In this document: one piece after another, positions 7,660-59,438 of the stretch
Position numbering within the stretch: the first letter of the stretch is position 1
How the letters are laid out: every line of letters starts with the position of its first letter
From: Paenibacillus sp. FSL H8-0537
Lineage (GTDB): Bacteria; Bacillota; Bacilli; Paenibacillales; Paenibacillaceae
Assembly (NCBI RefSeq): GCF_038051995.1
Contig: NZ_CP150290.1
Coordinates: 731,501-795,500, forward strand
Length of the DNA stretch: 64,000 nt
Reading direction: 5' to 3'
Made by a program: the position numbers and the translations under genes
The notes under the pieces: generated by a model
Databases searched by the model: none
Told to the model about the DNA's origin: nothing
Seen by the model: only the letters and a program-made list of their open reading frames with translations

Positions 7660-8481
7660 ATTTCTGATATACGCCATATAAAAATGACCGCTGATGAAGT
7701 AATGGAAGGCCACCGCCTGCCCTCCAGCTGTGTTCTATATAGTACACGCGGTAGTGGTGCAAGTGTGATGCTGGATCGCGGCATCTATCAGGCCGAACCG
7801 TTCTTCCTGCTGCATGGAGCAAAAGAAATGCGGTTGAATATCGGCACAAATGAGCCATTCGAGTATTATTTGCTGTTTTACCGGACAAAGCCCGTATTTT
7901 TGCGCTGGAAGGAAATTGGCAGGCTGCTGGAGCGCAGCAACCCTTTTAATATTCAATACGGTTTCCAGCCCTGTGAGCCGTTGGGCCTATATAACTGTCT
8001 TTGCGAATTGGAGCGTACATGGGTGGCGGGGGAGAAGCTGGGAAGATTGCAGGCGACGGGACTGTTCTATCAGTTCATCCATGAGCTGTTGTGGCAGTTG
8101 AGGTCGGAGGAGAAAAATATCGCAAAAACCGATTTTGTCACGAGTGCCACTCGCTATTTGCATGATTATTACCAAGACAGCATAACACTGCAGTCGCTTG
8201 CGGAGAGGCTGAATTATAGCGTTCGCCATTTGGCAGTCAGCTTCAAGCAGCAAATCGGTGTCAGTCCCATTGAATATTTAATCCGCATTAGAATCAGCCA
8301 CGCCTGCAGACTGCTGGTGGAGACAGATGCTTCACTGCGCGATATTGCCTCACAGGTGGGTTATCCCGATGTGTATTATTTTAGTCGTATTTTCAAAAAA
8401 CAGACCGGCTTGTCGCCTGCACGCTATCAGACTAAAGAACGCCAGCAGCGAGCAGCAAAGGATCGTCCATTTATTTTATAG
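7660..8481 (+). pseudogene. AraC-family regulator, 5'-truncated or with a nonsense codon
   Basis: From ATG 7684 a 265-residue AraC protein can be read: cupin-like domain, then paired helix-turn-helix motifs (LAERLNYSVRHLAVSFKQ and IASQVGYPDVYYFSRIFKK), ending SPARYQ plus a basic tail. It is a close relative of the AraC part of the ORF at 12587. In the same frame, homology continues upstream of 7684: codons 7660-7683 read ISDIRHIK, matching ILDIRHLV of the relative, until a TAA at 7657-7659 where the relatives carry Lys. No ribosome binding site precedes 7684. The gene has therefore lost about 20 N-terminal residues by a nonsense mutation or truncation, and no binding-protein domain follows. 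Residual activity from 7684 cannot be excluded. Confidence 0.65.
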
Positions 8482-11176: not shown

Positions 11177-12373
11177 TTAGTTGGCAGCTTTGCGTTCTGT
11201 CATATAGGTTGCCAGCCCCAGCGTTAGTGCTAGCCCGACAAGCACAGCCCCGACCCACGGGAGTGCATTTAAGGACAGATGGGTGATGACCCAGCCCCCG
11301 ATAAAAGCGCCGACAGCATTTCCTAAATTACCTGCGGAATGGCTGGAGGTGGAGGCGAGGGCGGGCGCCGCTTTCGCCAGGCTCATAATCCGGACCTGCA
11401 GCCCGGGCATGACCGCGAAGGAACCGGCTCCCCAAAGGAAAATCGTCACAACAGCCGCTATAGGGCTATGAATCGTAAAAGTTAAGATGGCCAAAATGAC
11501 CGATATGAAAACATAAAGTCCCAATATGGCAGGCATTAGCTTCCAATCGGCAAGCTTGCCGCCGACGATGTTGCCAAGCGTTACACCGCAGCCGAAAAGC
11601 ACTAAAATCCACGTGACGCTGTGCTCTGCAAAGCCTGACACCTGCGTAAGCAGCGGTGTAATATACGTAAAGACGGCGAATAACCCGGAGTTGCCTAGCG
11701 CGCAGATTAGCAGGAAGACAAGAAGCTTGGGTCTGGCAAGAGCGGCAAGCTGCTGAACGATGCTCGCCGTTTGTTCCTGCTTTATTTTTGGAATGAAGAT
11801 CAGTATGCCTGCCAGGGCGATAACGCCCATGATGGCAATGGCTCCGAAAGAGGCGCGCCAGCCCATGTTTTGTCCGATAAAGGTGCCGAGAGGAACGCCT
11901 ATAATATTGGCAATCGTCAGCCCGGCCATCATGATGGATACGGCTCCGGCCCGTTTATTTGGCGGCACGAGATTAGAGGCAATCACTGCTCCGACGCCGA
12001 AAAAGGTTCCATGTGTCAATGCGGTAATGACACGCGCGCCCATCAGGACGGCATAGCTCGGCGCAAAAACCGAGATGACATTGCCGAGAATGAATAAAAT
12101 CATCAGCAGACATAGCAGTTGCTTTTGCGGGATTTGTTGCGTGAGCATGGTTAATATGGGAGCGCCGATTGCTACGCCAAGCGCATACATCGTAATTAGC
12201 TGTCCAGCAGCCGAAATGCTGACATGCAGGTCTGTGGCGACATTAGGCAGCAGCCCCATAATGACAAACTCGGTCATGCCAATGGCAAATGCTCCGACAG
12301 TAAGCGAGAGAATCGAGACGGGGAACGGCTCTTTGGCGGCTTGCTTCTGGGTCAAACGTTGAGAGAACTCCAT
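11177..12373 (-). CDS. MFS transporter, DHA1/AraJ-like drug or sugar efflux family
   Basis: I prefer Met 12373 (MEFSQRLTQKQ) to the upstream Met at 12436, because the first membrane helix begins about residue 20 from it; GAAAGG is the nearest ribosome binding site but somewhat distant. About 398 residues with 12 hydrophobic helices. The first helix motif MTEFVIMGLLPNVATDL and ALTHGTFFGVGAVIASNLVP are typical of the AraJ/YdhP/NepI efflux proteins. It likely exports a small molecule by proton antiport. It is divergent from an iron-responsive AraC gene and shares the intergenic Fur box region, so a link with siderophore export is possible but unproven. Confidence 0.88.
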   Translation of the reverse strand: MEFSQRLTQKQAAKEPFPVSILSLTVGAFAIGMTEFVIMGLLPNVATDLHVSISAAGQLITMYALGVAIGAPILTMLTQQIPQKQLLCLLMILFILGNVISVFAPSYAVLMGARVITALTHGTFFGVGAVIASNLVPPNKRAGAVSIMMAGLTIANIIGVPLGTFIGQNMGWRASFGAIAIMGVIALAGILIFIPKIKQEQTASIVQQLAALARPKLLVFLLICALGNSGLFAVFTYITPLLTQVSGFAEHSVTWILVLFGCGVTLGNIVGGKLADWKLMPAILGLYVFISVILAILTFTIHSPIAAVVTIFLWGAGSFAVMPGLQVRIMSLAKAAPALASTSSHSAGNLGNAVGAFIGGWVITHLSLNALPWVGAVLVGLALTLGLATYMTERKAAN

Positions 12374-12524
12374 GATGTAAATGACAACCTTTCTGCTGTG
12401 CAAACTAAGAGTCCAATCTTTACAATATGTATCCAAGCAATTAGACCTATTTCATCATTATTTAGGTTTTTGAGTGTAATATCAAGCTATTTATAAATGG
12501 CGTTAAACAAATTTAAGTTGTAGC

Positions 12525-12539
12525 TGAGAATTATTCTCG
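12525..12539. promoter_or_regulatory. Fur-box-like site between MFS and AraC-SBP genes
   Basis: TGAGAATTATTCTCG, a near-perfect inverted repeat, matches 11 of 14 fixed positions of the 7-1-7 Fur box TGATAATNATTATCA. It lies 48 bases before ATG 12587 and 152 bases before the divergent MFS start, so either or both genes may be iron-repressed. Confidence 0.65.
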
Positions 12540-12586
12540 ATAAAATAGAGAGGCATACAGATCTGGACTTTGCGGAAGGTGAAACG

Positions 12587-14557
12587 ATGGATGTAGAACA
12601 GCATGTTAAGCTTTGGAATCAGGCTTCTATTAAAATATTAGATATTCGGCATCTGGTTATGCGCGCTGGGGAGCAGGTGAAGGGCTACCGGCTGCCAGCC
12701 AGCGGTTTTATCTACACAACAAGAGGCGGCGCACAGGTTGCTCTGGACGGAAATTCCTATGAGGTGAACAAGCTGCAGGTGCTGCACGGCGGCAAGGGCA
12801 TAGGTCTGGATATTTCCGATGTCGAGGACTGCTTCGAATATTATATGATTTATTATCGGGCCAGCCTTCCGCTGCCCAGCAGCAGAGAGCTTAAAGCGCT
12901 GCTGGAGCAGCAGCTGCCTTTTCACATTCAGTACGCCTTCGTTCCCAATTATCCGATTGCTTTATACAACTATGTTACAAGCCTTGATCAAATATGGAGA
13001 CAAGCGGATGCGCTCTCTAAATTTCAAGTCAAAACCTTATTTTATCAATTTGTCCACGAGCTGTTGCGGCAGCTGGATACACAGGGCATTCCAACGATTA
13101 AGCCTAATATCGTAACGCAAGCTGTCCGTTATCTTAACGAGCGATATGCAGAGCCGATTATGGTGGATGGGTTGGCGGAGCTTTTGGATTGCAGTTCGGG
13201 GCATTTATCAAGAATGTTTAAAAAAGAGACAGGAAGCAGCCTCATTGAATATTTGACCCGCATTCGAATCAATAAAGCGAGAGAGCTCCTTTTGCATACC
13301 GATGCGTCCCTACAGACGATTGCGGAAAGCGTAGGTATCCCAGACGCGATGTACTTCAATCGTATTTTCAAAAAATATGCAGGCATTTCGCCGGGACGCT
13401 TCAAAACGAACTACGTTCATTTGCCATTCGATCAGTATAATGCTACGGGTAAGTCAGAATCCTCCATTGTCAGGCGTACCTTTCGCCGTTATATTCATAA
13501 TGGTGATAATCATTATCAATATAAACAAAAAGGGGATTCACGCATACCAATGAAACCGAAACAGTCGATTACGCTACTTCTTATGCTTAGCCTTACTCTA
13601 TTACTGTCAGCATGCTCTGGCACAACAAACACAACTGCTGCGAGTGGCAATAGTCAAAGCAGCAGTGCAGCGCAGCAAACAAATAGCGAGCAAGCCACTC
13701 AGCCGCCATCTACGCAGGAAAAAGTCATTAAGCATGCATGGGGAGAAACGGTTATTAAAGGGGAGCCAAAAAATATTATCTCTTTATTTCCCGCCGCTAC
13801 CGATTATTTGCTGGCGCTTGGCATCGTGCCGCAGGCGGCATCAAGCAATGAAGAAGGCAGCGATCAATTTCCGACCTATCTTGCCGATCGCCTGCAAGGG
13901 CAGAAAAATTTAGGCTGGCAGGTGGAGCCGAATTTTGAGAGTATTTTAGCTTTGGAGCCAGACCTGATTATTGGTCAAGATTTTATGGGCGAAGCTTTCG
14001 CTAACTTAAATAAAATTGCCCCTACGTTGTTCGCGGAAAAAGTGAAGGATGAGCAGGGCATCATTCGAATGAAAACGAGTCTCCTTAAAATCGGTGACAT
14101 GCTCGGAAGAACGGAGCAGGCGAATCAGGTCATTGCGGAATACGAGAAGCTGGCTGCAGAGGGCAAAGAGAAAATTAAGCAAGCGATCGGTGATGAAACA
14201 GTTATGTTTTTGCGCCTGTCCGATAAGGAAGTGCGCTATTATAGCAAACGGAACTATGAAGTTCTTTATGACGATTTAGGCTTGCAAGCGCCAGCGTCTA
14301 TACCGGACCCAGCCGAATCGATGCAGGTGATCTCGCTAGAGAAGCTGCCGTCTATTAACCCAGATCACATCTTTTTATTATCCTCCGATCCTACAGAAAC
14401 GACTGAAATGCAAAAGACTGAAGTGTGGAAAAGCTTGAAGGCCGTTCAAAATAACCATGTTCACTTGGTGGATTATGGCCTATGGTTTCAAGGTCCCGGC
14501 GGCCCCATCGGCCAAACGAAAATTATCGAAGAAACGGTTCAGTTTCTTACCCAATAA
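12587..14557 (+). CDS. AraC regulator reading in frame into a siderophore-binding lipoprotein (656-codon ORF)
   Basis: The frame starts at ATG 12587 and has no stop until 14557. Residues 1-150 are the cupin-like sensor half of this AraC subfamily. Residues about 185-285 are the DNA-binding half (LAELLDCSSGHLSRMFKK; IAESVGIPDAMYFNRIFKK; SPGRFK). Residues 286-321 are a basic linker encoded over a perfect Fur box. Residues 322-343 are a complete lipoprotein signal peptide with lipobox LSAC (Cys343). Residues about 385-656 are a FecB/FhuD-type binding domain. A true fusion would span the membrane with the AraC part inside and the binding domain outside. More simply, the SBP is also translated from its own start at 13550 (separate entry). 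A nitroreductase-like gene follows after 30 bases. Confidence 0.8.
   Translation: MDVEQHVKLWNQASIKILDIRHLVMRAGEQVKGYRLPASGFIYTTRGGAQVALDGNSYEVNKLQVLHGGKGIGLDISDVEDCFEYYMIYYRASLPLPSSRELKALLEQQLPFHIQYAFVPNYPIALYNYVTSLDQIWRQADALSKFQVKTLFYQFVHELLRQLDTQGIPTIKPNIVTQAVRYLNERYAEPIMVDGLAELLDCSSGHLSRMFKKETGSSLIEYLTRIRINKARELLLHTDASLQTIAESVGIPDAMYFNRIFKKYAGISPGRFKTNYVHLPFDQYNATGKSESSIVRRTFRRYIHNGDNHYQYKQKGDSRIPMKPKQSITLLLMLSLTLLLSACSGTTNTTAASGNSQSSSAAQQTNSEQATQPPSTQEKVIKHAWGETVIKGEPKNIISLFPAATDYLLALGIVPQAASSNEEGSDQFPTYLADRLQGQKNLGWQVEPNFESILALEPDLIIGQDFMGEAFANLNKIAPTLFAEKVKDEQGIIRMKTSLLKIGDMLGRTEQANQVIAEYEKLAAEGKEKIKQAIGDETVMFLRLSDKEVRYYSKRNYEVLYDDLGLQAPASIPDPAESMQVISLEKLPSINPDHIFLLSSDPTETTEMQKTEVWKSLKAVQNNHVHLVDYGLWFQGPGGPIGQTKIIEETVQFLTQ
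13504..13518 (+). promoter_or_regulatory. Perfect Fur box inside the AraC/lipoprotein ORF
   Basis: TGATAATCATTATCA matches all fixed positions of the 7-1-7 Fur consensus. It lies within the linker of the read-through ORF, 31 bases before the internal ATG of the lipoprotein. This is where a promoter for a separately transcribed SBP would be. Confidence 0.85.
13550..14557 (+). CDS. Siderophore-binding lipoprotein from internal start
   Basis: ATG 13550, in frame with the larger ORF, begins MKPKQSITLLLMLSLTLLLS followed by A-C, a complete Sec/lipoprotein signal with the lipidated Cys at residue 22. AAAAAGGGG lies about 14 bases upstream, a slightly long spacing. The mature protein carries the class III binding-protein features ILALEPDLIIGQDFMG, NLNKIAPTLF and INPDHIFLLSS. 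It should bind a ferric siderophore outside the membrane and hand it to a FecCD-type permease encoded elsewhere. The perfect Fur box just upstream implies induction by iron starvation. It is listed separately because a lipoprotein signal can only work at an N-terminus. Confidence 0.7.
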   Translation: MKPKQSITLLLMLSLTLLLSACSGTTNTTAASGNSQSSSAAQQTNSEQATQPPSTQEKVIKHAWGETVIKGEPKNIISLFPAATDYLLALGIVPQAASSNEEGSDQFPTYLADRLQGQKNLGWQVEPNFESILALEPDLIIGQDFMGEAFANLNKIAPTLFAEKVKDEQGIIRMKTSLLKIGDMLGRTEQANQVIAEYEKLAAEGKEKIKQAIGDETVMFLRLSDKEVRYYSKRNYEVLYDDLGLQAPASIPDPAESMQVISLEKLPSINPDHIFLLSSDPTETTEMQKTEVWKSLKAVQNNHVHLVDYGLWFQGPGGPIGQTKIIEETVQFLTQ

Positions 14558-14587
14558 GGGAAGGCGAGAAGAGGAGGGTGGTGCGAA

Positions 14588-15157
14588 ATGGCCATATCGG
14601 CAATTGAGCAGCTAATTCGCGAAAGAAGAACGATACGTCAATTTAACGGGCAGACATTGGCGAAAGAAACCGTCATCAACCTGTTGGATGCGGCAGTATG
14701 GGCTCCGGTTCATTCGCGCAAGGAGCCTTGGCGATTCATTTTGTTCATGGGCGCAGGAAGGCAGCAGTTTTCAGATGCGGTGCTGCATACGTTTTCGGAG
14801 GACGAGCGGGAAAAATGGGGACAGAAGCTGCAGCTTGATTATTGCGAACGCATGCAAGCCCATTTGCTCATCGTCATAGAGGCCGACGCTAGGCAGCGCG
14901 TGTGGGAGGATGCTGTTGGGGCAGGCTCCGCGCTGATTCAAAATATCCAACTGCTGGCGTGGGAGCAGGGAATCGGCGTCGTATGGAAGACGAATGAATA
15001 CAATTTTGACCCGGATTTTTGCAGGCTTACGGGCGTGAAGCCAGGCGAACGCATTATTGGCACGCTGCATCTTGGTTATTTTGATCCCGATAAGACACCT
15101 AAGCCTAGACCTCGCACACCGGTGGGGAAACTGTTAACCTGTGTTACGGGGGAATAA
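14588..15157 (+). CDS. Nitroreductase-family flavoprotein
   Basis: ATG 14588 follows GAGGAGGGTGG. The 189-residue protein has the family signatures: IEQLIRERRTIRQFNGQ (FMN binding), WAPVHSRKEPWRFI and GVVWKTNEYN, ending with GTLHLGYFD. These FMN enzymes reduce nitro compounds, quinones or ferric chelates with NAD(P)H. Only 30 bases separate it from the SBP gene, and no terminator lies between, so it is likely co-transcribed with an iron-regulated operon; a ferric-siderophore or flavin reductase role would fit but is inference. Confidence 0.88.
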   Translation: MAISAIEQLIRERRTIRQFNGQTLAKETVINLLDAAVWAPVHSRKEPWRFILFMGAGRQQFSDAVLHTFSEDEREKWGQKLQLDYCERMQAHLLIVIEADARQRVWEDAVGAGSALIQNIQLLAWEQGIGVVWKTNEYNFDPDFCRLTGVKPGERIIGTLHLGYFDPDKTPKPRPRTPVGKLLTCVTGE

Positions 15158-16018: not shown

Positions 16019-16195
16019 CTAATTCGAAATGCTTCATATTTTGTTAAAGGTTATATCTTCGCGATATCCCTTGATTTTCCTGCTATAACCCATAAAGAGA
16101 ATAGACTTTAGGGTGAGAATCGTTGTATTTCTTATCGTGGCTTATTCCTATAAAATGATAAGCATAAAGCGGATGAGAAGAAGGTGGCGAGCAAA

Positions 16196-17842
16196 ATGTC
16201 TGATCATGAATACGGCTTGCAAGCGGGCAAATATGAGCTGCTGGACAACATGTGGTTCAAGCTTAGAGGAGTCGAGAAAAATAATAGCGACTCGGGGAGC
16301 TGGTCGTTTCGGCTGCAGTTCATTGAATCGCATATGCTGCTGCTAATAGCATCCGGCAAGGGCTGGATTACCGTGGACGGCCGGTATTTGGAGCTAAGGG
16401 CAGGCAGTGCTTTTGTTTGTACGCCTGGTCAATTAATCGAGGCCTTTCTTGAGGCTCCGGGCGAGCGCGGACTATACGTTGTGCGCTTTGATGTATTTGC
16501 ACAGCCTGAAACTTCGGAGCGGCAAACGCAGAACGAACCGCAGCTCCCAAATCTGCGGTTTCCCATCGAAGGAGAAATCGTGGCATCCTCCATGATTGAA
16601 TGGTGTGCACTTTGCGAGGCAATAGGCAATTCTATGAAAAGCGAGGATCATTTACAGCGACTGCGCGGCCAAATTCAGTTTTATGAGCTGCTGTACAGCC
16701 TGCTGCGAGATGGCCAGCGCGTATGGGACACGGATTCCGAGGCTGCCATGGAACGTGCCAAGCTATATATGGAACAGCATTACCGCGAGGAGCTGACAAT
16801 TGAGCTATTGGCGCGGGAGGCTGGAATTAGCTCGCGGCATTTTATCCGGCTGTTTAAGCAAACCTATGGCTGGAGTGCCATTGAATATTTGGCGAGATAT
16901 CGCATTAGGCAAGCCCAGGAGCTGATGAAGCCCGATTCGGAATACCAGCTTAAGGATATCGCGAGCTACGTCGGTTATCCGGATGAGCTGTATTTTCGGC
17001 GCAAATTTAAAAAAATAACGGGCACGCCGCCGGCTGCATATATGAAAAATGCTAAAAAAAGGATCGTGGCTTATCATGCCAATATGATCGGACATTTGCT
17101 GGCGCTGCATATTACGCCTCATGCGGCTCCAGCCGACCATCCATGGACCGAATATTACCGCCGAAAATACGACATCGATTCGGTTCTGCCCCTGGCGCAG
17201 GAGGATGATGTGAAAATAGAGCAGATCCGCAAGTCGAATCCGGACTACATCGTCGGGCTTAAAGAATTCACGAGCGCGGAAGCGAAGAAAAAGCTGGAAG
17301 AGCTGGCGTCAACTTATTTAATACCGCGGCTGGAGCATAATTGGCGAATGCAGCTAAGATTGCTTGCGGAGTGGCTGGACAAATCCTCAGAAGCGGAAGC
17401 CTGGCTCGATCAGTACGAACGAAAAACACGTGCTGTGCGGGAGCAGGTGAAAAAAATATGGGGTAAGGATCGTCTGCTCATTGCCCGATTATCAGGGCAG
17501 GCGATTCACATTTTGGGCAGCAGAAGCTTGGGCGAGGTGTTTTATGACGATCTCAAAATTACGCCAGCGGCGGGCATTGTTCCAGATCAGCCCGAGCAGC
17601 AATGGACACGGGATGAGCTGATGCATACGGATGCAGATAGGCTGCTGCTCATTGTAGATGACGATGCATTGGCACAAGCGGCCTGGCAGGAGCTGCGGCA
17701 GGCAGAGGCATGGGGGCAATTGAAGGCAGTTAGAAACAAGCGAATCGACTATCTTCCTTCTTACCCATGGACCGAATATACAGCGTTCACGCAAGATTTG
17801 GTTTTGGACGAGGTGTTAAAGCTTTGGCGTAATCGTGCATAA
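16196..17842 (+). CDS. AraC-family regulator fused to a cytoplasmic siderophore-binding domain (Btr-like)
   Basis: ATG 16196 is preferred over GTG 16184 because AAGGTGG then lies 8 bases upstream. The 548-residue protein has a cupin-like sensor (residues about 30-110), AraC helix-turn-helix pair (LAREAGISSRHFIRLFKQ; IASYVGYPDELYFRRKFKK) at about 195-280, and a binding-protein domain from about 290 (IRKSNPDYIVGLKEF; LEELASTYLIP). There is no signal peptide or hydrophobic linker, so unlike the 12587 and 59438 ORFs this is a soluble one-piece sensor-activator. It probably activates the lipoprotein SBP encoded 124 bases downstream when the ferric siderophore is bound. Confidence 0.88.
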   Translation: MSDHEYGLQAGKYELLDNMWFKLRGVEKNNSDSGSWSFRLQFIESHMLLLIASGKGWITVDGRYLELRAGSAFVCTPGQLIEAFLEAPGERGLYVVRFDVFAQPETSERQTQNEPQLPNLRFPIEGEIVASSMIEWCALCEAIGNSMKSEDHLQRLRGQIQFYELLYSLLRDGQRVWDTDSEAAMERAKLYMEQHYREELTIELLAREAGISSRHFIRLFKQTYGWSAIEYLARYRIRQAQELMKPDSEYQLKDIASYVGYPDELYFRRKFKKITGTPPAAYMKNAKKRIVAYHANMIGHLLALHITPHAAPADHPWTEYYRRKYDIDSVLPLAQEDDVKIEQIRKSNPDYIVGLKEFTSAEAKKKLEELASTYLIPRLEHNWRMQLRLLAEWLDKSSEAEAWLDQYERKTRAVREQVKKIWGKDRLLIARLSGQAIHILGSRSLGEVFYDDLKITPAAGIVPDQPEQQWTRDELMHTDADRLLLIVDDDALAQAAWQELRQAEAWGQLKAVRNKRIDYLPSYPWTEYTAFTQDLVLDEVLKLWRNRA

Positions 17843-17905
17843 AATGTTGGCGAGATCGTCGATAGGCGAAGAGGAACGTATCCGTTATACTCCTAACAGT
17901 GATGT

Positions 17906-17920
17906 TGATTCTCATTTTCA
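17906..17920 (+). promoter_or_regulatory. Fur-box-like site upstream of lipoprotein SBP
   Basis: TGATTCTCATTTTCA matches 11 of 14 fixed positions of the Fur consensus and lies 46 bases before ATG 17967. Confidence 0.5.
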
Positions 17921-17966
17921 AAAGAGAAATTAGACATATCGATCGCTCAGGAGGGTACAGAAAAAA

Positions 17967-18986
17967 ATGAAACAATCGAAGACAGGATTACTGCTAGTCA
18001 TGATCGCGCTGCTGACGCTAGTGATGGCTGCTTGCTCAGGCAGCAATGGACAAGGAAATACGACCGCAACAGCATCGCCATCCGCATCGCCAGAGGCGGC
18101 CCAATCATCCAGCCAGCCAAGTGCGACGGCAGAGGATGGCGTTCGTACTGTAGCAAGCGAGAAAGGCGAAATCACGATTCCGGCAAATCCTAGCAAGGTG
18201 ATTGGGCTTTCCGTTGTGTATCCGGAATTTCTGCAAGCCTTGGGCGTTACGCCAATTGCCGTGCAAAATTTTCATCCGGAGTTCCCGGTTTATTTGGAGG
18301 AGCCATTCAAAAATACAACTAAAATGGGCATCGCCACGACGCCTGATTTTGAAAAAATATTAGCCGCTGAGCCTGATCTGATTATTGCTCCGATATGGTG
18401 GTCAGACAAAGACTACGATCAGCTTACGAAGATTGCACCAACTGTATTGCTGCCGCAACGCGATGACTGGCGTGATGAGCTGAAGGACATTGCCGGCGTA
18501 TTAGGCAAGCCAGAGGCTGCGGATAAGGTCATTCAAGATTTAGTTGATCAGGAACTGGCAGCCAAAGAGAAGCTCGATACAATCGTTGGCGACGAAACGG
18601 TCATGTATATGATGATTATGCCGGATGGCATTGTTCTTTATGGCGAAAATATTGATCGCGGCAGCTTTGTTCATAAGACGCTGGGGCTTAAAGCGGTTGA
18701 GAATTTCCCTCAGAATGAGCTTTCCATTACGATATCGCTCGAGAAACTGCCGGAATACAACCCGGATCATATTATCTTGCAGATGAATGATGATAGCAAT
18801 GAAACCATCCAGCAATATTACAAGGAAATCCAAAGCAGCTCCTTATGGAAAAACATGACGGCCGTGAAGAAAAATCAGGTTTATCTGGTAGGCGGAGAGG
18901 AATGGTTTAATCTGGGCATGTCCCCTCTGGCGAACAGCTATGCGATAGATGCCATTCTTCAGATTTTTGAAAATAAAGGCCAATAG
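17967..18986 (+). CDS. Siderophore-binding lipoprotein (FecB/FhuD type)
   Basis: ATG 17967 follows AGGAGGG. The 339-residue protein begins with a lipoprotein signal (MKQSKTGLLLVMIALLTLVM, lipobox MAAC), then a Ser/Ala/Thr linker, then a class III binding fold: GEITIPANPSKVIGLSVVYP, ILAAEPDLIIAPIWWS, LTKIAPTVLLP and YNPDHIILQMND. It is tethered to the outer face of the membrane and should deliver a ferric siderophore to a permease not found in this window. Encoded between a Btr-like activator and an FhuF-like reductase, it completes a sense-bind-reduce set. Confidence 0.92.
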   Translation: MKQSKTGLLLVMIALLTLVMAACSGSNGQGNTTATASPSASPEAAQSSSQPSATAEDGVRTVASEKGEITIPANPSKVIGLSVVYPEFLQALGVTPIAVQNFHPEFPVYLEEPFKNTTKMGIATTPDFEKILAAEPDLIIAPIWWSDKDYDQLTKIAPTVLLPQRDDWRDELKDIAGVLGKPEAADKVIQDLVDQELAAKEKLDTIVGDETVMYMMIMPDGIVLYGENIDRGSFVHKTLGLKAVENFPQNELSITISLEKLPEYNPDHIILQMNDDSNETIQQYYKEIQSSSLWKNMTAVKKNQVYLVGGEEWFNLGMSPLANSYAIDAILQIFENKGQ

Positions 18987-54106: not shown

Positions 54107-55096
54107 CTATTTTTTGTTCAAAATCATTTCCGCGATCTGATCTAGAAGCATATCCTTGCCAAGCGGGGTGAAGGATAAATTCCACTGATCGTTATTGCTG
54201 CCGCGATACACGTTTCCGTTCTTCACCGCGTCCTTCGATTTCCAAATCGCGCTATTGACCAAGTCGGTTTCACTGCCATCCGTATACATGAAGAAAATAT
54301 GGTCGGGATTAATGGTGGACAGCCCTTCTATATCGATTTCCAAGCCCCAATCTTTGATCGGTGTACCTTCAGCGTAAGGCAGTTTCAAATCATTGAAAAG
54401 CAGAGAGCCATAGCCGGACGTACCATAAATGCGAATTGTTTTTTGATTGGCTTCAATGACCGCAAATGTCTCAGCGCCCGTCTTTGCAACGATTTCATCG
54501 TGGAGTTTGGCTGCTTTGGCATCATAGGCTGCCAGCCAGTCTGCGACCTGCTGCTTCTGGTCCAAAATATCGCCGATTTGCGTAAAACGGCCGCGCCAGT
54601 CGATATAGGTCATGTCGTCGGTCAGCATAATCGTTGGTGCGATTTTGGAAAGCTGCTCATACACTTTCTCATGACGGATATTGGTAATAATTAGATCGGG
54701 CTCTGATTGTACAATGGCCTCCAGATTTAATTCCCCACTGCCATAATAGCCAGCTGTAGGTACACCAGCAAGGGATTCGCGCAAATGCTCTGGGATGACA
54801 GTAGGCGCGTCGAATTCCGTATTGGCGGTAATGACGGGCTTATGCCCCAATATCACCAGCTCCTCCGAAGAGCCGGATATGTCGGCGATACGCTGTGGAT
54901 GAGCGGGAATAACCGTCTCACCCTTCATATGCTTAAAGGTTTTTGTAGTTGACTGTTCAGATGACGAGGCGGAAGGAGCACTGGCTTCGGTACTTGCTGG
55001 GTTCGCGGCATTATTGCTTGCCGACGAGCAGGCAGTAACAACAATCAATAGAGCAATAAATACAATAGTTGAAAATGGTTTAGTCAATTTTTTCAT
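54107..55096 (-). CDS. Siderophore-binding lipoprotein (FecB/FhuD type)
   Basis: Minus-strand ORF of 329 residues with AAAGGGG before ATG 55096. Lipoprotein signal MKKLTKPFSTIVFIALLIVV with T-A-C lipobox, Ala/Ser linker, then KGETVIPAHPQRIADISGSS, IVQSEPDLIITNIRHE, LSKIAPTIMLTDD and INPDHIFFMYTD. It faces the medium and delivers a ferric siderophore to an unlinked permease. A near-perfect Fur box precedes it. Confidence 0.92.
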   Translation of the reverse strand: MKKLTKPFSTIVFIALLIVVTACSSASNNAANPASTEASAPSASSSEQSTTKTFKHMKGETVIPAHPQRIADISGSSEELVILGHKPVITANTEFDAPTVIPEHLRESLAGVPTAGYYGSGELNLEAIVQSEPDLIITNIRHEKVYEQLSKIAPTIMLTDDMTYIDWRGRFTQIGDILDQKQQVADWLAAYDAKAAKLHDEIVAKTGAETFAVIEANQKTIRIYGTSGYGSLLFNDLKLPYAEGTPIKDWGLEIDIEGLSTINPDHIFFMYTDGSETDLVNSAIWKSKDAVKNGNVYRGSNNDQWNLSFTPLGKDMLLDQIAEMILNKK

Positions 55097-55133
55097 TAGA
55101 ATTCCCCTTTGCTTGCAAGCAGTATTTACTTAT

Positions 55134-55148
55134 TGATAAAGATTATCA
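55134..55148 (-). promoter_or_regulatory. Fur box upstream of SBP gene 54107-55096
   Basis: TGATAAAGATTATCA matches 13 of 14 fixed positions, 38 bases before ATG 55096. Confidence 0.8.
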
Positions 55149-55280
55149 CTGAGTCAAAGCGTTTGCTACTCGCAGAAGGAGGATTGCTGCCCGCATACGG
55201 ATAATTTGCTACTTGATGAACGCGTAATGCAGCAGAAAGCCTGTTTTGTCCATTGTGCTAGATGGCAGTATCCAGTATAT

Positions 55281-55295
55281 TGATAATTATTATCA
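55281..55295 (+). promoter_or_regulatory. Perfect Fur box upstream of SBP gene 55319-56311
   Basis: TGATAATTATTATCA matches all fixed Fur positions, 23 bases before ATG 55319. Confidence 0.85.
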
Positions 55296-55318
55296 TTAAA
55301 TATATGAGGGGTTTTCAC

Positions 55319-56311
55319 ATGTCTACGAAACAAGTCAGAATGTTCATTGCCGCCATACTGTTATTAACCTTCGGTTTATTAGCAGCTTGCGGCTCCACTG
55401 GTGGTGTAGAAGCAACGGAGTCGGCACCAGCTGCAACAGCAACCGAGTCTGATCCGGCTGCGACAACTGCGACAGAGGCAGCAACACGCATCTACAAGGA
55501 TTTTAGCGGGCATGAAGTTACAATTCCAACACATCCGCAGAAAATCGTATTGCTCGGCGACATTCCAGGGGATTTGCTGGCACTGGGCATTACACCTGTG
55601 GGGAACGATTGGGTAAACGAGCCCTACATTTATAAAGACGATTTAGTCGGGGTTGTCGATATTGGCTACCCGCATAATATGGAGAAGGTGCTGGAGCTTG
55701 CGCCGGATCTGATTTTGCAGGCTGGATATGGCGGGCCGGATGATAACGGAATTTTCGAGAAAATGTCCAAAATCGCGCCGACGGTCATTTTCAATAGAGA
55801 TGCGGCAACGTTTGATCGCTTGCGAGAGGTTGCTGACATCGTCAATAAGAAGCAGGAGGCGGAGGCTTGGATTGCCAGCTATGAGATTAAGGCGAAGGCG
55901 ATGTGGGATAAAATCGGCTTGAAGCCAGGCGAGTCGGCAACGGTCTACCTAAGCCTAGCCGGCGACTTCTATGTTATGGGCAATTTCAGCTTAACGATGT
56001 CTCTGTACCAGCAAGGCGGCTTTAGCCCAAGCGCCAAGGTGCAGGAGCTCATCGACAAGAAGGAGGTGTTCTCGCTCATTTCAATGGAGGTGCTGCCTGA
56101 TTATGCGGGGGACCACGTGTTTTTACTCAGCTCGCCCGGCACAGATGATGAAGCAGAGGCGAAAAAGCTGATGGAGGGTCCGCTTTGGAAGTCGATCCCT
56201 GCTGTTAAAAACAATCATGCTTATACGGCTGATATTAGCTGGAACGCAAGTGATCCCATTACAATGGAACGTTTCTTGGACGAACTCCCGAAAATTATGG
56301 GCATAGAGTAG
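55319..56311 (+). CDS. Siderophore-binding lipoprotein (FecB/FhuD type)
   Basis: ATG 55319 follows GAGGGG; the frame opens at 55262 but would include the Fur box. The 330-residue protein has a lipoprotein signal (MSTKQVRMFIAAILLLTFGL, lipobox LAAC), an Ala/Thr/Ser linker, and FSGHEVTIPTHPQKIVLLGD, VLELAPDLILQAGYG, MSKIAPTVIFN and LPDYAGDHVFLLSS. It is divergent from the minus-strand SBP gene; the two share a 222-base region with two Fur boxes. It is similar in pattern to ferrichrome/hydroxamate-type binding proteins, but the ligand cannot be inferred. Confidence 0.92.
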   Translation: MSTKQVRMFIAAILLLTFGLLAACGSTGGVEATESAPAATATESDPAATTATEAATRIYKDFSGHEVTIPTHPQKIVLLGDIPGDLLALGITPVGNDWVNEPYIYKDDLVGVVDIGYPHNMEKVLELAPDLILQAGYGGPDDNGIFEKMSKIAPTVIFNRDAATFDRLREVADIVNKKQEAEAWIASYEIKAKAMWDKIGLKPGESATVYLSLAGDFYVMGNFSLTMSLYQQGGFSPSAKVQELIDKKEVFSLISMEVLPDYAGDHVFLLSSPGTDDEAEAKKLMEGPLWKSIPAVKNNHAYTADISWNASDPITMERFLDELPKIMGIE

Positions 56312-57452: not shown

Positions 57453-58481
57453 TTAAGCCTTTTTGCCTAAAAAGCTCTCTACAATAAATTGCAATTGAGC
57501 CTCGAGGGAGATGGGATCATTAAAATAAGAGCCCTCAGCGTTTATAAAATAAACCTGATTTTGCTTCACGGCAGGAAGCCCTTTCCATAGGCTGCTCCCG
57601 TAAACGATGTCCGGGTCTCCATCATCCCAGCCCCAATTGCTTGTGAAAATATAGTCCCCAGCATATTCCGGCAGCTGTTCAAGAGACAGGCTTGAGCCGA
57701 ACTCGGCGCCATCAATAAGAGCCTTTTGAATAATTGCAGGAGCCTTCAGGCCTAGATCACCGTAGATGATCTCTCCGCCTCTGCCGCCTTTATTGCCCCA
57801 AGCATAAATACCTTTCGCATAAGGCTGTAAAATCGAGACGGTTTTATCTCCGACGACCTCGGCGATTTTAGGCTTAACCTCGGCAATTTTTGCATGCCAT
57901 TCTTTGATCCAGGCCTCGGCGATTTGTTCCTTGCCTGTTATTTTCCCGAACTCGGTTAACAGCTCCGCAGGAGTGCCTGCTCCGTATTTAAGCCTTACAA
58001 CCGGAGCAATTTGACCCAGCTTCTCATATTCGCTTTCTTCCAAAAAATCATAGACGATAATCAAATCCGGGTCGATATTCAGTATAGCCTCCAAATTAGT
58101 GCCATCCCCCAGATCTGCGATGCCATCCAATTTGCCTTCGTGATAAGGGTTAACCAATGATTCTGCCAAAGCTGCGACCGGCTTCAAATCCAGCTTAAGC
58201 AAATTTCCGATTGCGCTCCCTGTCAAATCAACGATCCTTTCCGGGTTTGCGGGTATGGTTACCGTTCCTGTGCTATCCGTATAGGTTTTCGTTGCTGCTG
58301 CAGAGCTGCTCGTTGGTGATGCTTCAGCCGAAGGCTGGCTTGAGCTTTGCACGGCAGGACTGCTGCTTGTCCCAGACTGACTTGCGCCTGTGTTAGCTGC
58401 GCCAGAGCAGGCGCTTAACAGTAAGGTCATACATAGCAGGAGGGTTGCCGCCATGGAATAGGGCTTGTTTATTTTTGACAC
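57453..58481 (-). CDS. Siderophore-binding lipoprotein from internal GTG start
   Basis: GTG 58481 (MSKINKPYSMAATLLLCMTL...) has GGAGGA at 58488-58493, 6 bases away, an ideal site. The 342-residue product has a Sec/lipoprotein signal with lipobox LSAC (Cys25) and a class III binding fold. A Fur-like site lies 27 bases upstream. It should be secreted and lipid-anchored, unlike the AraC half encoded upstream in the same frame. Confidence 0.85.
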   Translation of the reverse strand: MSKINKPYSMAATLLLCMTLLLSACSGAANTGASQSGTSSSPAVQSSSQPSAEASPTSSSAAATKTYTDSTGTVTIPANPERIVDLTGSAIGNLLKLDLKPVAALAESLVNPYHEGKLDGIADLGDGTNLEAILNIDPDLIIVYDFLEESEYEKLGQIAPVVRLKYGAGTPAELLTEFGKITGKEQIAEAWIKEWHAKIAEVKPKIAEVVGDKTVSILQPYAKGIYAWGNKGGRGGEIIYGDLGLKAPAIIQKALIDGAEFGSSLSLEQLPEYAGDYIFTSNWGWDDGDPDIVYGSSLWKGLPAVKQNQVYFINAEGSYFNDPISLEAQLQFIVESFLGKKA

Positions 58482-59438
58482 AGAAAATCCTCCACTTCTC
58501 GTTGAATGATAATGATACTCGTAATCATTCACACTATAGCACTGCGTATAGGGAGGGACAATGGCAAATTTAGTACGAAAGGCGGGCGATTTTGGTATAA
58601 GGCTGTTTTGACGGTATTTTGTTCTAAATTCCGATGGCGGCAGTCCATAATATTTTTTGAAGCTGCGGCCAAGTGTATGGGCGTCGGGATACCCGACAAG
58701 CTCCGCTGTTTCTTGCAGGGAGGTTTCGGTTTGCGCCAGCAATTCAGCAGCTCTTCTCACGCGAATTTGAGTTAGCAGGCGGATGGGGCTCTCATTCATT
58801 TGCTTTTTGAACAGCTTGGTCAAGTAGCTTACACTGCAATCGAACAGCTCCGACATCGTTTCCAGCGTAATGGGGTTCCTGTAGCATTCCTGCATATATC
58901 GCAGCATTTGTGCCAATAAATCTGGGCGAGCTGGTTCAATTCCTTGTCGCTGCATTTGCCAAAGAAGCTCATGCACAAATTGATAAAATAAAGTCCGTGC
59001 GTGCAAAAGATGAAGGGGATCAAGCTTCATCCAAGCCGTATACATTTTTCCCATCGTCTCGAGCAAAGGCAAAGGATATAAGGGGACAAAGCGATATTCA
59101 TATTGGAAAGGGCGGTCCGAATCATTAGGCTGCACCAGCTTTTGCGAAGGGGCCAGCATAACAACGGCCTTGTACAGAATAAGGTAATAGGCAAAGGGCT
59201 GCTCAGCCGTAATCGAGAGCTGCGCACTGCGTCCGCCGTGCAGGACATGGAATCGCTCCATAGGATGCTGCGAGTGATCCAGCTGTACTTGCGCGCTGCC
59301 TTCAATGACATAGAGAAAAGCATTAGCCGGCAGACGATAGGGGGCCAGCCTTTCTCCGGCTTCCAGCCGTGCATAGCGAAAATCCATTATTTTCACAGAA
59401 GCATGATTCCAGAGCATGATATGATCGTCTAGTTTCAT
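57453..59438 (-). CDS. AraC regulator reading in frame into a siderophore-binding lipoprotein (661-codon ORF)
   Basis: The same arrangement as at 12587, on the minus strand. Residues 1-150: cupin-like sensor half. About 185-285: AraC pair (MSELFDCSVSYLTKLFKK; TAELVGYPDAHTLGRSFKK). Residues 286-319: linker encoded over a Fur-like site, with no stop codon. From residue 320: lipoprotein signal ending LLLSAC (Cys344), then a FecB-type binding domain (VTIPANPERIVDLTGSAIGN, ILNIDPDLIIVYDFLE). An excellent ribosome binding site and GTG at 58481 show that the SBP can be made alone. Whether the full-length product exists is open. Confidence 0.8.
   Translation of the reverse strand: MKLDDHIMLWNHASVKIMDFRYARLEAGERLAPYRLPANAFLYVIEGSAQVQLDHSQHPMERFHVLHGGRSAQLSITAEQPFAYYLILYKAVVMLAPSQKLVQPNDSDRPFQYEYRFVPLYPLPLLETMGKMYTAWMKLDPLHLLHARTLFYQFVHELLWQMQRQGIEPARPDLLAQMLRYMQECYRNPITLETMSELFDCSVSYLTKLFKKQMNESPIRLLTQIRVRRAAELLAQTETSLQETAELVGYPDAHTLGRSFKKYYGLPPSEFRTKYRQNSLIPKSPAFRTKFAIVPPYTQCYSVNDYEYHYHSTRSGGFSVSKINKPYSMAATLLLCMTLLLSACSGAANTGASQSGTSSSPAVQSSSQPSAEASPTSSSAAATKTYTDSTGTVTIPANPERIVDLTGSAIGNLLKLDLKPVAALAESLVNPYHEGKLDGIADLGDGTNLEAILNIDPDLIIVYDFLEESEYEKLGQIAPVVRLKYGAGTPAELLTEFGKITGKEQIAEAWIKEWHAKIAEVKPKIAEVVGDKTVSILQPYAKGIYAWGNKGGRGGEIIYGDLGLKAPAIIQKALIDGAEFGSSLSLEQLPEYAGDYIFTSNWGWDDGDPDIVYGSSLWKGLPAVKQNQVYFINAEGSYFNDPISLEAQLQFIVESFLGKKA
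58508..58526 (-). promoter_or_regulatory. Fur-box-like site inside the AraC/lipoprotein ORF
   Basis: GATAATGATACTCGTAATC matches 16 of 19 positions of the classical Fur box. It lies within the AraC ORF and just before the internal GTG of the lipoprotein. Confidence 0.7.

Follow-up and report, generated by a model that had tools for sequence, protein, structure and literature searches.

Btr (YbbB), the AraC-type bacillibactin regulator of Bacillus subtilis, consists of AraC domains followed by a FeuA-like siderophore-binding domain. It is not known to contain a signal segment, lipobox or internal promoter, its substrate-binding protein (SBP) domain is cytoplasmic, and binding of the ferri-siderophore leads it to activate a siderophore transporter. 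The protein analysed here, from Paenibacillus sp. FSL H8-0537, likewise combines an AraC helix-turn-helix and a Peripla_BP_2 domain, in this order, in one chain. Unlike Btr, however, it has a signal/transmembrane (TM) segment between the two domains, and it reaches 138.8 bits with the NCBIfam Btr model NF049932, for which the cut-off is 900.

The predicted nested product of the same gene shares its signal peptide, lipobox, fold and docking glutamates with FeuA/FhuD-type lipoprotein SBPs, but is encoded within the reading frame of a regulator. ToxR/CadC-type regulators combine an N-terminal DNA-binding part, a single TM helix and an external sensor in one chain, an arrangement that is predicted for the fused protein too. 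The fused protein differs from these in its AraC-type DNA-binding domain, its SBP sensor, its lipobox and a predicted second product from an internal promoter. Genes in which an in-frame internal start gives rise to two products are a known general class, and here, too, one frame would have two start points. Whereas this holds for the class in general, the inner product of our locus would additionally have its own Fur-type promoter and, judging by its signal peptide, a different location in the cell.

In B. subtilis, ybbB/btr is described in passages of PMC3896406 as lying upstream of the lipoprotein gene feuA. According to passages of a study of siderophore clusters (PMC13293324), HTH_18 is the principal domain co-occurring with Peripla_BP_2 genes in these clusters, and Paenibacillus has 29.43 receptor genes per siderophore cluster, the highest ratio that the study reports. 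The words "AraC" and "fusion" are absent from the main text of that study, and these passages mention no internal promoter or lipobox. Similarly, a word search for AraC, lipoprotein and substrate-binding in the main text of a survey of membrane-bound one-component regulators (PMC10269533) gave no hit. In a literature search by titles and abstract openings, which covered few subscription papers, we recognised no description of a nested AraC/lipoprotein arrangement. From comparative sequence evidence, we consider it likely that the locus is a two-in-one gene, which encodes a full-length and probably membrane-spanning regulator as well as a transport lipoprotein that is expressed from an internal, Fur-controlled promoter.

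Architecture of the fused reading frame

The window, that is, the whole 64-kb stretch of DNA analysed, comprises positions 731501–795500 of a 7.0-Mb single-contig genome. Its reading frame at 12587–14557 (+) is 656 codons long and open throughout: no stop codon separates the complete AraC regulator from the Peripla_BP_2 domain, which is complete as well. The 656 aa product is composed of the AraC regulator, a linker, a signal/TM segment with a lipobox and the siderophore-binding domain. The HTH_18 (AraC DNA-binding) domain spans residues 196–273 (13172–13405, +), and the hydrophobic core (residues 328–342) together with the lipobox cysteine Cys343 (LSAC; codon 13613–13615) occupies 13568–13615 (+). 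The Peripla_BP_2 domain, which includes the docking-type residues Glu451 and Glu585, covers residues 397–626 (13775–14464, +). Nested in the same frame is a putative lipoprotein SBP gene of 335 codons (13550–14557, +), whose product, starting from the ATG at 13550, begins MKPKQSITLLLMLSLTLLLSAC. A Fur box, an internal ATG and a lipobox had all been noted in the original prediction, and each lies where it was placed. The same prediction included a free cytoplasmic AraC regulator; this product finds no support, since without a stop codon between the domains AraC alone could arise only by proteolysis.

Both the AraC and the SBP part were well folded in an AlphaFold2 model (mean pLDDT 81.8, pTM 0.47), in which the relative placement of the domains is unreliable. 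The SBP part matches the structures of SirA (3mwf), YfiY (3tny) and FeuA (2why), and also HtsA. A helix at residues 327–341 is flanked by disordered stretches on either side (279–327 and 344–375). The predicted disorder flanking the TM helix argues against a stiff transmembrane signal and in favour of dimerisation, tethering or cutting. Around this helix, the charge on the N-terminal side exceeds that on the C-terminal side in 94/116 proteins; the more positive charge on the AraC side favours AraC being inside, while the incomplete spread of this bias speaks against it. The hydrophobic helix and the charge bias thus make the proposed membrane-spanning fusion, in which AraC would face the cytoplasm and the SBP the exterior, plausible, as a topology that we infer rather than observe.

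Conservation of the fusion

A search of ~5.8 billion proteins, in which the 7994 candidates sharing most words were scored, yielded 394 homologues. The best 120 of these, which are 573–684 aa long and contain the same three Pfam domains, all lack the stop codon, so that its absence is conserved. A sequencing error hiding a stop codon or frameshift is excluded, as the 120 listed homologues share the open frame, including a Paenibacillus algorifonticola protein that is 95% identical over its whole length and is the closest named relative among the matches listed. The suggestion that relatives might all have separate ORFs proved false, with fused relatives at more than 100 loci. AraC, a hydrophobic segment with the lipobox cysteine and a siderophore-binding domain are found in all 121 proteins (the 120 listed and the query). 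Five fused proteins carry the lipobox LNAC, and an alignment of 44 proteins shows no variation at Cys343, Glu451 or Glu585.

The source genome contains 14 fused copies, and 33 of 299 genomes drawn from the class, belonging to five families, have a match at E ≤ 1e-70. Twenty loci were fetched after this 299-genome search, and 14 of them hold fused genes, with 16 ORFs that all have an in-frame Fur box with 0–3 mismatches and a promoter of 8–10/12. The other six comprise two in-clade-like genes without the segment (L195, L201), two Btr-type pairs (L191, L192), a lone SBP (L190) and a broken orthologue (L189), which has a disrupted frame and lacks the promoter, Fur box and signal region. Because the fused protein was the query for most of the loci, the sample favours fused genes; the AraC-part-only search and the survey of all Peripla_BP_2 matches of the genome are less prone to this bias. 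Locus totals vary (112 unique loci for the Fur box, start codon and docking residues, 114 for the promoter, 116 for charge and 121 fused genes in the tree), as the analyses differ in which loci were added, filtered out or merged as duplicates.

A search of 37 genomes with only the AraC part as query placed 93 of the 95 listed matches of at least 150 bits in ORFs of 636–746 aa (manual count). Orthologues apart, the matches are only 31–54% identical to the AraC part of the query. The two exceptions are a decayed copy at 7684–8481 of this window and a 596-codon no-TM derivative. Split araC/SBP neighbours do occur: there are eight in the first locus set, with a Fur box near the junction (≤1 mismatch in five, 2–3 in three), and one more pair in the source genome (711317/712307). 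Seven of the eight pairs are in the same frame, which is probably an artefact of the read-through search. In a quick AraC tree with many open forks, seven split pairs fall outside the group holding all 121 fused genes, and one (L019) sits at the base of this group. Of the 35 no-TM proteins, 28 are placed opposite all fused ones and seven within the fused group.

Four of these in-clade no-TM genes (L179, L180, L181 and L018/L182) encode proteins of ~590 aa that have lost the signal segment, and in every case a lipoprotein SBP is encoded separately downstream. Their loci contain no Fur box with ≤2 mismatches, and both docking glutamates are present, indicating that these residues do not always track export. 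Judged by their gene layout, the four are a natural split of the regulator and lipoprotein functions. A divergent lipoprotein SBP adjoins the in-clade no-TM genes L160 and L187, another is located 872 bp upstream of L186, and L201 has a separate lipoprotein SBP downstream. The lipoprotein ORF of L179 still opens with a stretch resembling the linker motif, which would fit a duplication of the SBP part. L195 (1556–3554) is an in-clade no-TM AraC-SBP gene that seems to retain decayed traces of linker motif and signal segment; no neighbouring lipoprotein SBP was seen in the 5.5 kb fetched, an exception that counts against the two-in-one reading.

A predicted promoter, Fur box and start codon within the frame

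The linker-coding DNA contains a sigma-A-like promoter sequence, TTGTCA-N17-TATATT (13467–13495, +), with TTGTCA at 13467 and TATATT at 13490, which lies in frame within the ORF and has 10/12 consensus bases. It is the sole + strand promoter-like match in 12200–14900. A scan of the window stretch alone found two promoter-like matches where 3.8 were expected, a number not above chance, and the case for the promoter thus rests on its conservation. At least 9/12 consensus bases are present in 55% of 114 loci, compared with 16% after recoding and 3% elsewhere in genes, and the spacer measures 17 nt in 103/114. Nine nucleotides past the –10 element starts the perfect 7-1-7 Fur box TGATAATCATTATCA (13504–13518, +; in-frame reading (.)DNHYQ), which covers the expected transcription start. 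Transcription would begin at ~13502, just before or under the box. We dropped a TATAAA –10 candidate at 13520–13525, directly 3' of the Fur box, in favour of the conserved TTG-N17-TATAAT-type pair 5' of it, as the former would start transcription inside the ribosome site.

The 64-kb window has four Fur sites with ≤2 mismatches against 0.38 expected. Across the family, 111 of 112 unique fused loci have an in-frame linker Fur box with ≤3 mismatches, and in 50 it is perfect. The mean number of mismatches is 0.96, as opposed to 2.53 after synonymous recoding; perfect boxes make up 45% of those observed versus 5.5% of trials in which the same amino acids were recoded with the gene's own codon usage. 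In 112 of 113 rows (before de-duplication), the best Fur match falls in the same phase, T-GAT-AAT-CAT-TAT-CA. Codon choice within the box is accordingly narrow, with GAT in 75/75, AAT in 97/107, CAT in 75/75 and TAT in 91/92 cases, and TCT in 10/10 against a background of 0.12.

Downstream of the box, a Shine-Dalgarno-like AAGGGG (13530–13535, +) is spaced 14 nt from the ATG, a longer distance than in most family members. A start codon 21–26 codons 5' of the cysteine with a ribosome-binding energy ≤ –6.9 exists at 111/112 loci (91 ATG, 12 TTG and 8 GTG), so that by these signals the nested SBP has its own start codon and ribosome site. The observed energy of –9.6 kcal/mol is close to the recoded median of –8.5 kcal/mol, and this particular test therefore adds little beyond the protein motif. 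Internal initiation at 13550, as originally predicted, is strongly supported by the comparison of more than 100 loci. In this family-wide comparison, the fusion, the predicted promoter, the Fur box, the ribosome site, the start codon and the lipobox are all conserved.

Substitutions were analysed in eight-codon bins over 31 independent sister pairs (another run used 86 overlapping pairs). Synonymous differences amount to 0.40–0.51 across the second half of AraC, drop to 0.14–0.18 from 24 codons (72 nt) 5' of the Fur box through the box itself, rise to about 0.27 over the ribosome site and start codon and return to 0.31–0.45 in the SBP (reference values: AraC 0.44, SBP 0.43). This dip and recovery at the promoter/Fur region indicates selection acting on the DNA as such. 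Differences are fewest in the bin at –72 to –48 nt, which is 5' of the –35 element, at a site expected for activator binding; this activator may be the locus's own AraC domain. The linker is probably also kept as protein. Its pN/pS of 0.56 (95% 0.44–0.69) is below 1, and differences at its three codon positions are uneven (111/97/142, p = 0.011). At the same time, this pN/pS lies far above the values of AraC (0.18) and SBP (0.12), so the protein-level constraint would be modest.

A further Fur-like box, TGAGAATTATTCTCG, with three mismatches precedes the whole ORF (12525–12539, +). Boxes of this kind with ≤3 mismatches near the ORF start are found at 72/111 loci, compared with about 3.7 in shuffles. 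We also sought an operator common to the upstream and internal regions, which showed no excess over mismatched pairs, leaving autoregulation without sequence support.

Partner SBPs in the source genome

The 65 Peripla_BP_2 matches of the genome (64 over the cut-off) divide into 14 fused proteins, 21 no-TM proteins of the Btr type, defined as an AraC regulator plus SBP domain without signal peptide or TM segment, and 30 lone lipoproteins. A lone lipoprotein SBP is directly adjacent (directly neighbouring and within 400 bp) to 18/21 Btr-type genes versus 0/14 fused ones (Fisher p 3e-7, in a manual count of paralogues that are not fully independent). Counting clusters across FecCD genes, a lipoprotein SBP accompanies 20/21 Btr-type and 1/14 fused genes (1454641). 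All ten Btr-type genes with a same-strand lipoprotein SBP directly downstream form separate ORFs with it (manual count). FecCD permease genes directly follow the fused gene 1304302, which suggests that there the fused ORF itself should supply the SBP.

Glutamates of the E451/E585 type dock SBPs to FecCD-type permeases, a role known from work on BtuF and FeuA. Both positions are Glu in 109/112 family members, with a gap in the remaining three. Within the genome, the pair is present in 14/14 fused, 29/30 lone (one gap) and 6/21 Btr-type proteins; over all loci, the counts are 118/120, 49/51 and 11/36, respectively (two gapped rows each). These comparisons and the substitution analysis demonstrate, for the sequences covered, DNA-level constraint, transport-type docking residues and the lack of a directly adjacent partner SBP.

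One gene, two predicted products

We propose that an upstream promoter would drive a full-length AraC-linker-signal segment-SBP protein, whose sensor would be the siderophore-binding domain and which would probably be membrane-anchored, its AraC part facing inwards and its SBP part outwards. From a second promoter and start codon, internal, in frame and repressed by Fur, the lipoprotein SBP alone would arise and feed siderophore permeases. Both products would be under Fur. During iron starvation, Fur would leave the box and the lipoprotein would be made in bulk, while a full-length regulator that meets its ferri-siderophore would activate the internal promoter and perhaps further ones. The production of both proteins, their topology, the SBP domain as sensor and the regulatory targets are what we infer.

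Such an arrangement could also be the by-product of a tandem araC-SBP pair, in which only the inner-start lipoprotein and the AraC half matter and the open frame is a harmless run-on. The eight split pairs with a junction Fur box, the position of L019 at the base of the fused group and a disordered linker with fairly high pN/pS would fit this scenario. It is nevertheless quite improbable, given that 93/95 listed AraC matches stay fused despite their divergence (orthologues apart), that the linker pN/pS is below 1, that in-clade members without the signal keep AraC joined to the SBP domain and that all ten Btr-type genes of the same genome with a downstream lipoprotein SBP are separate ORFs. 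Conversely, the locus might produce nothing but the full-length protein, a membrane-tethered one-component sensor whose signal segment serves as TM helix and whose internal promoter is unused. The conserved open frame and the resemblance to ToxR/CadC-type regulators are in line with this. However, the lipobox cysteine of all 121 proteins, the constraint on synonymous sites throughout the promoter, Fur box and ribosome site, the non-ATG start codons at the right place and the absence of an adjacent partner lipoprotein would then go unexplained, which makes this reading very improbable.

A different origin of two products is conceivable in a polyprotein that, after membrane insertion and lipid modification, is cleaved at Cys343 by signal peptidase II, yielding an AraC half with a hydrophobic tail and a lipoprotein. 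The canonical mid-protein lipobox with its invariant cysteine and the disordered, protease-accessible flanks agree with such processing, which the ligand or permease state could control and which may act together with the internal start. Yet cleavage alone does not require an internal promoter, Fur box or ribosome site, and signal peptidase II would have to cut far from the N terminus; we regard the polyprotein as doubtful. Taken one step further, the SBP sequence would be both the outside half of the receptor and a free transport lipoprotein, and a signal peptidase II cut at the shared lipobox would release or inactivate AraC according to the siderophore or permease state. This is unlikely but, if true, would turn a site of lipoprotein maturation into a proteolytic switch.

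Should the two-in-one gene hold, it would represent a widespread and overlooked means of encoding a sensor and its transport protein in a single frame whose codons also spell out a whole Fur-controlled promoter, and would partly account for the great number of siderophore receptors in Paenibacillus. Annotation would be corrected as well: source names, where given, label the proteins AraC regulators, SBPs or hypothetical, but not both regulator and SBP.

Neighbouring genes in the window

A nitroreductase-family gene (14588–15157, +) begins 30 nt 3' of the fused ORF and is kept at 8/8 orthologous loci examined. It is possibly on the same transcript, and its product may, as a guess, be a ferric-siderophore reductase partner. 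A second fused AraC-TM-SBP ORF at 57453–59438 (–) has a weaker in-frame Fur box (three mismatches). The AraC-only remnant at 7684–8481 (+) is followed by no SBP match; in another genome, the gene most closely related to it (FUS_L078) is fused and complete. At 16184–18986 (+), the window's own Btr-like AraC-SBP gene without a TM segment (16184–17842), which has D instead of E at the second docking position, is followed by a separate lipoprotein SBP. Finally, divergent lipoprotein SBP genes at 54107–56311 flank a perfect Fur box (55281–55295).
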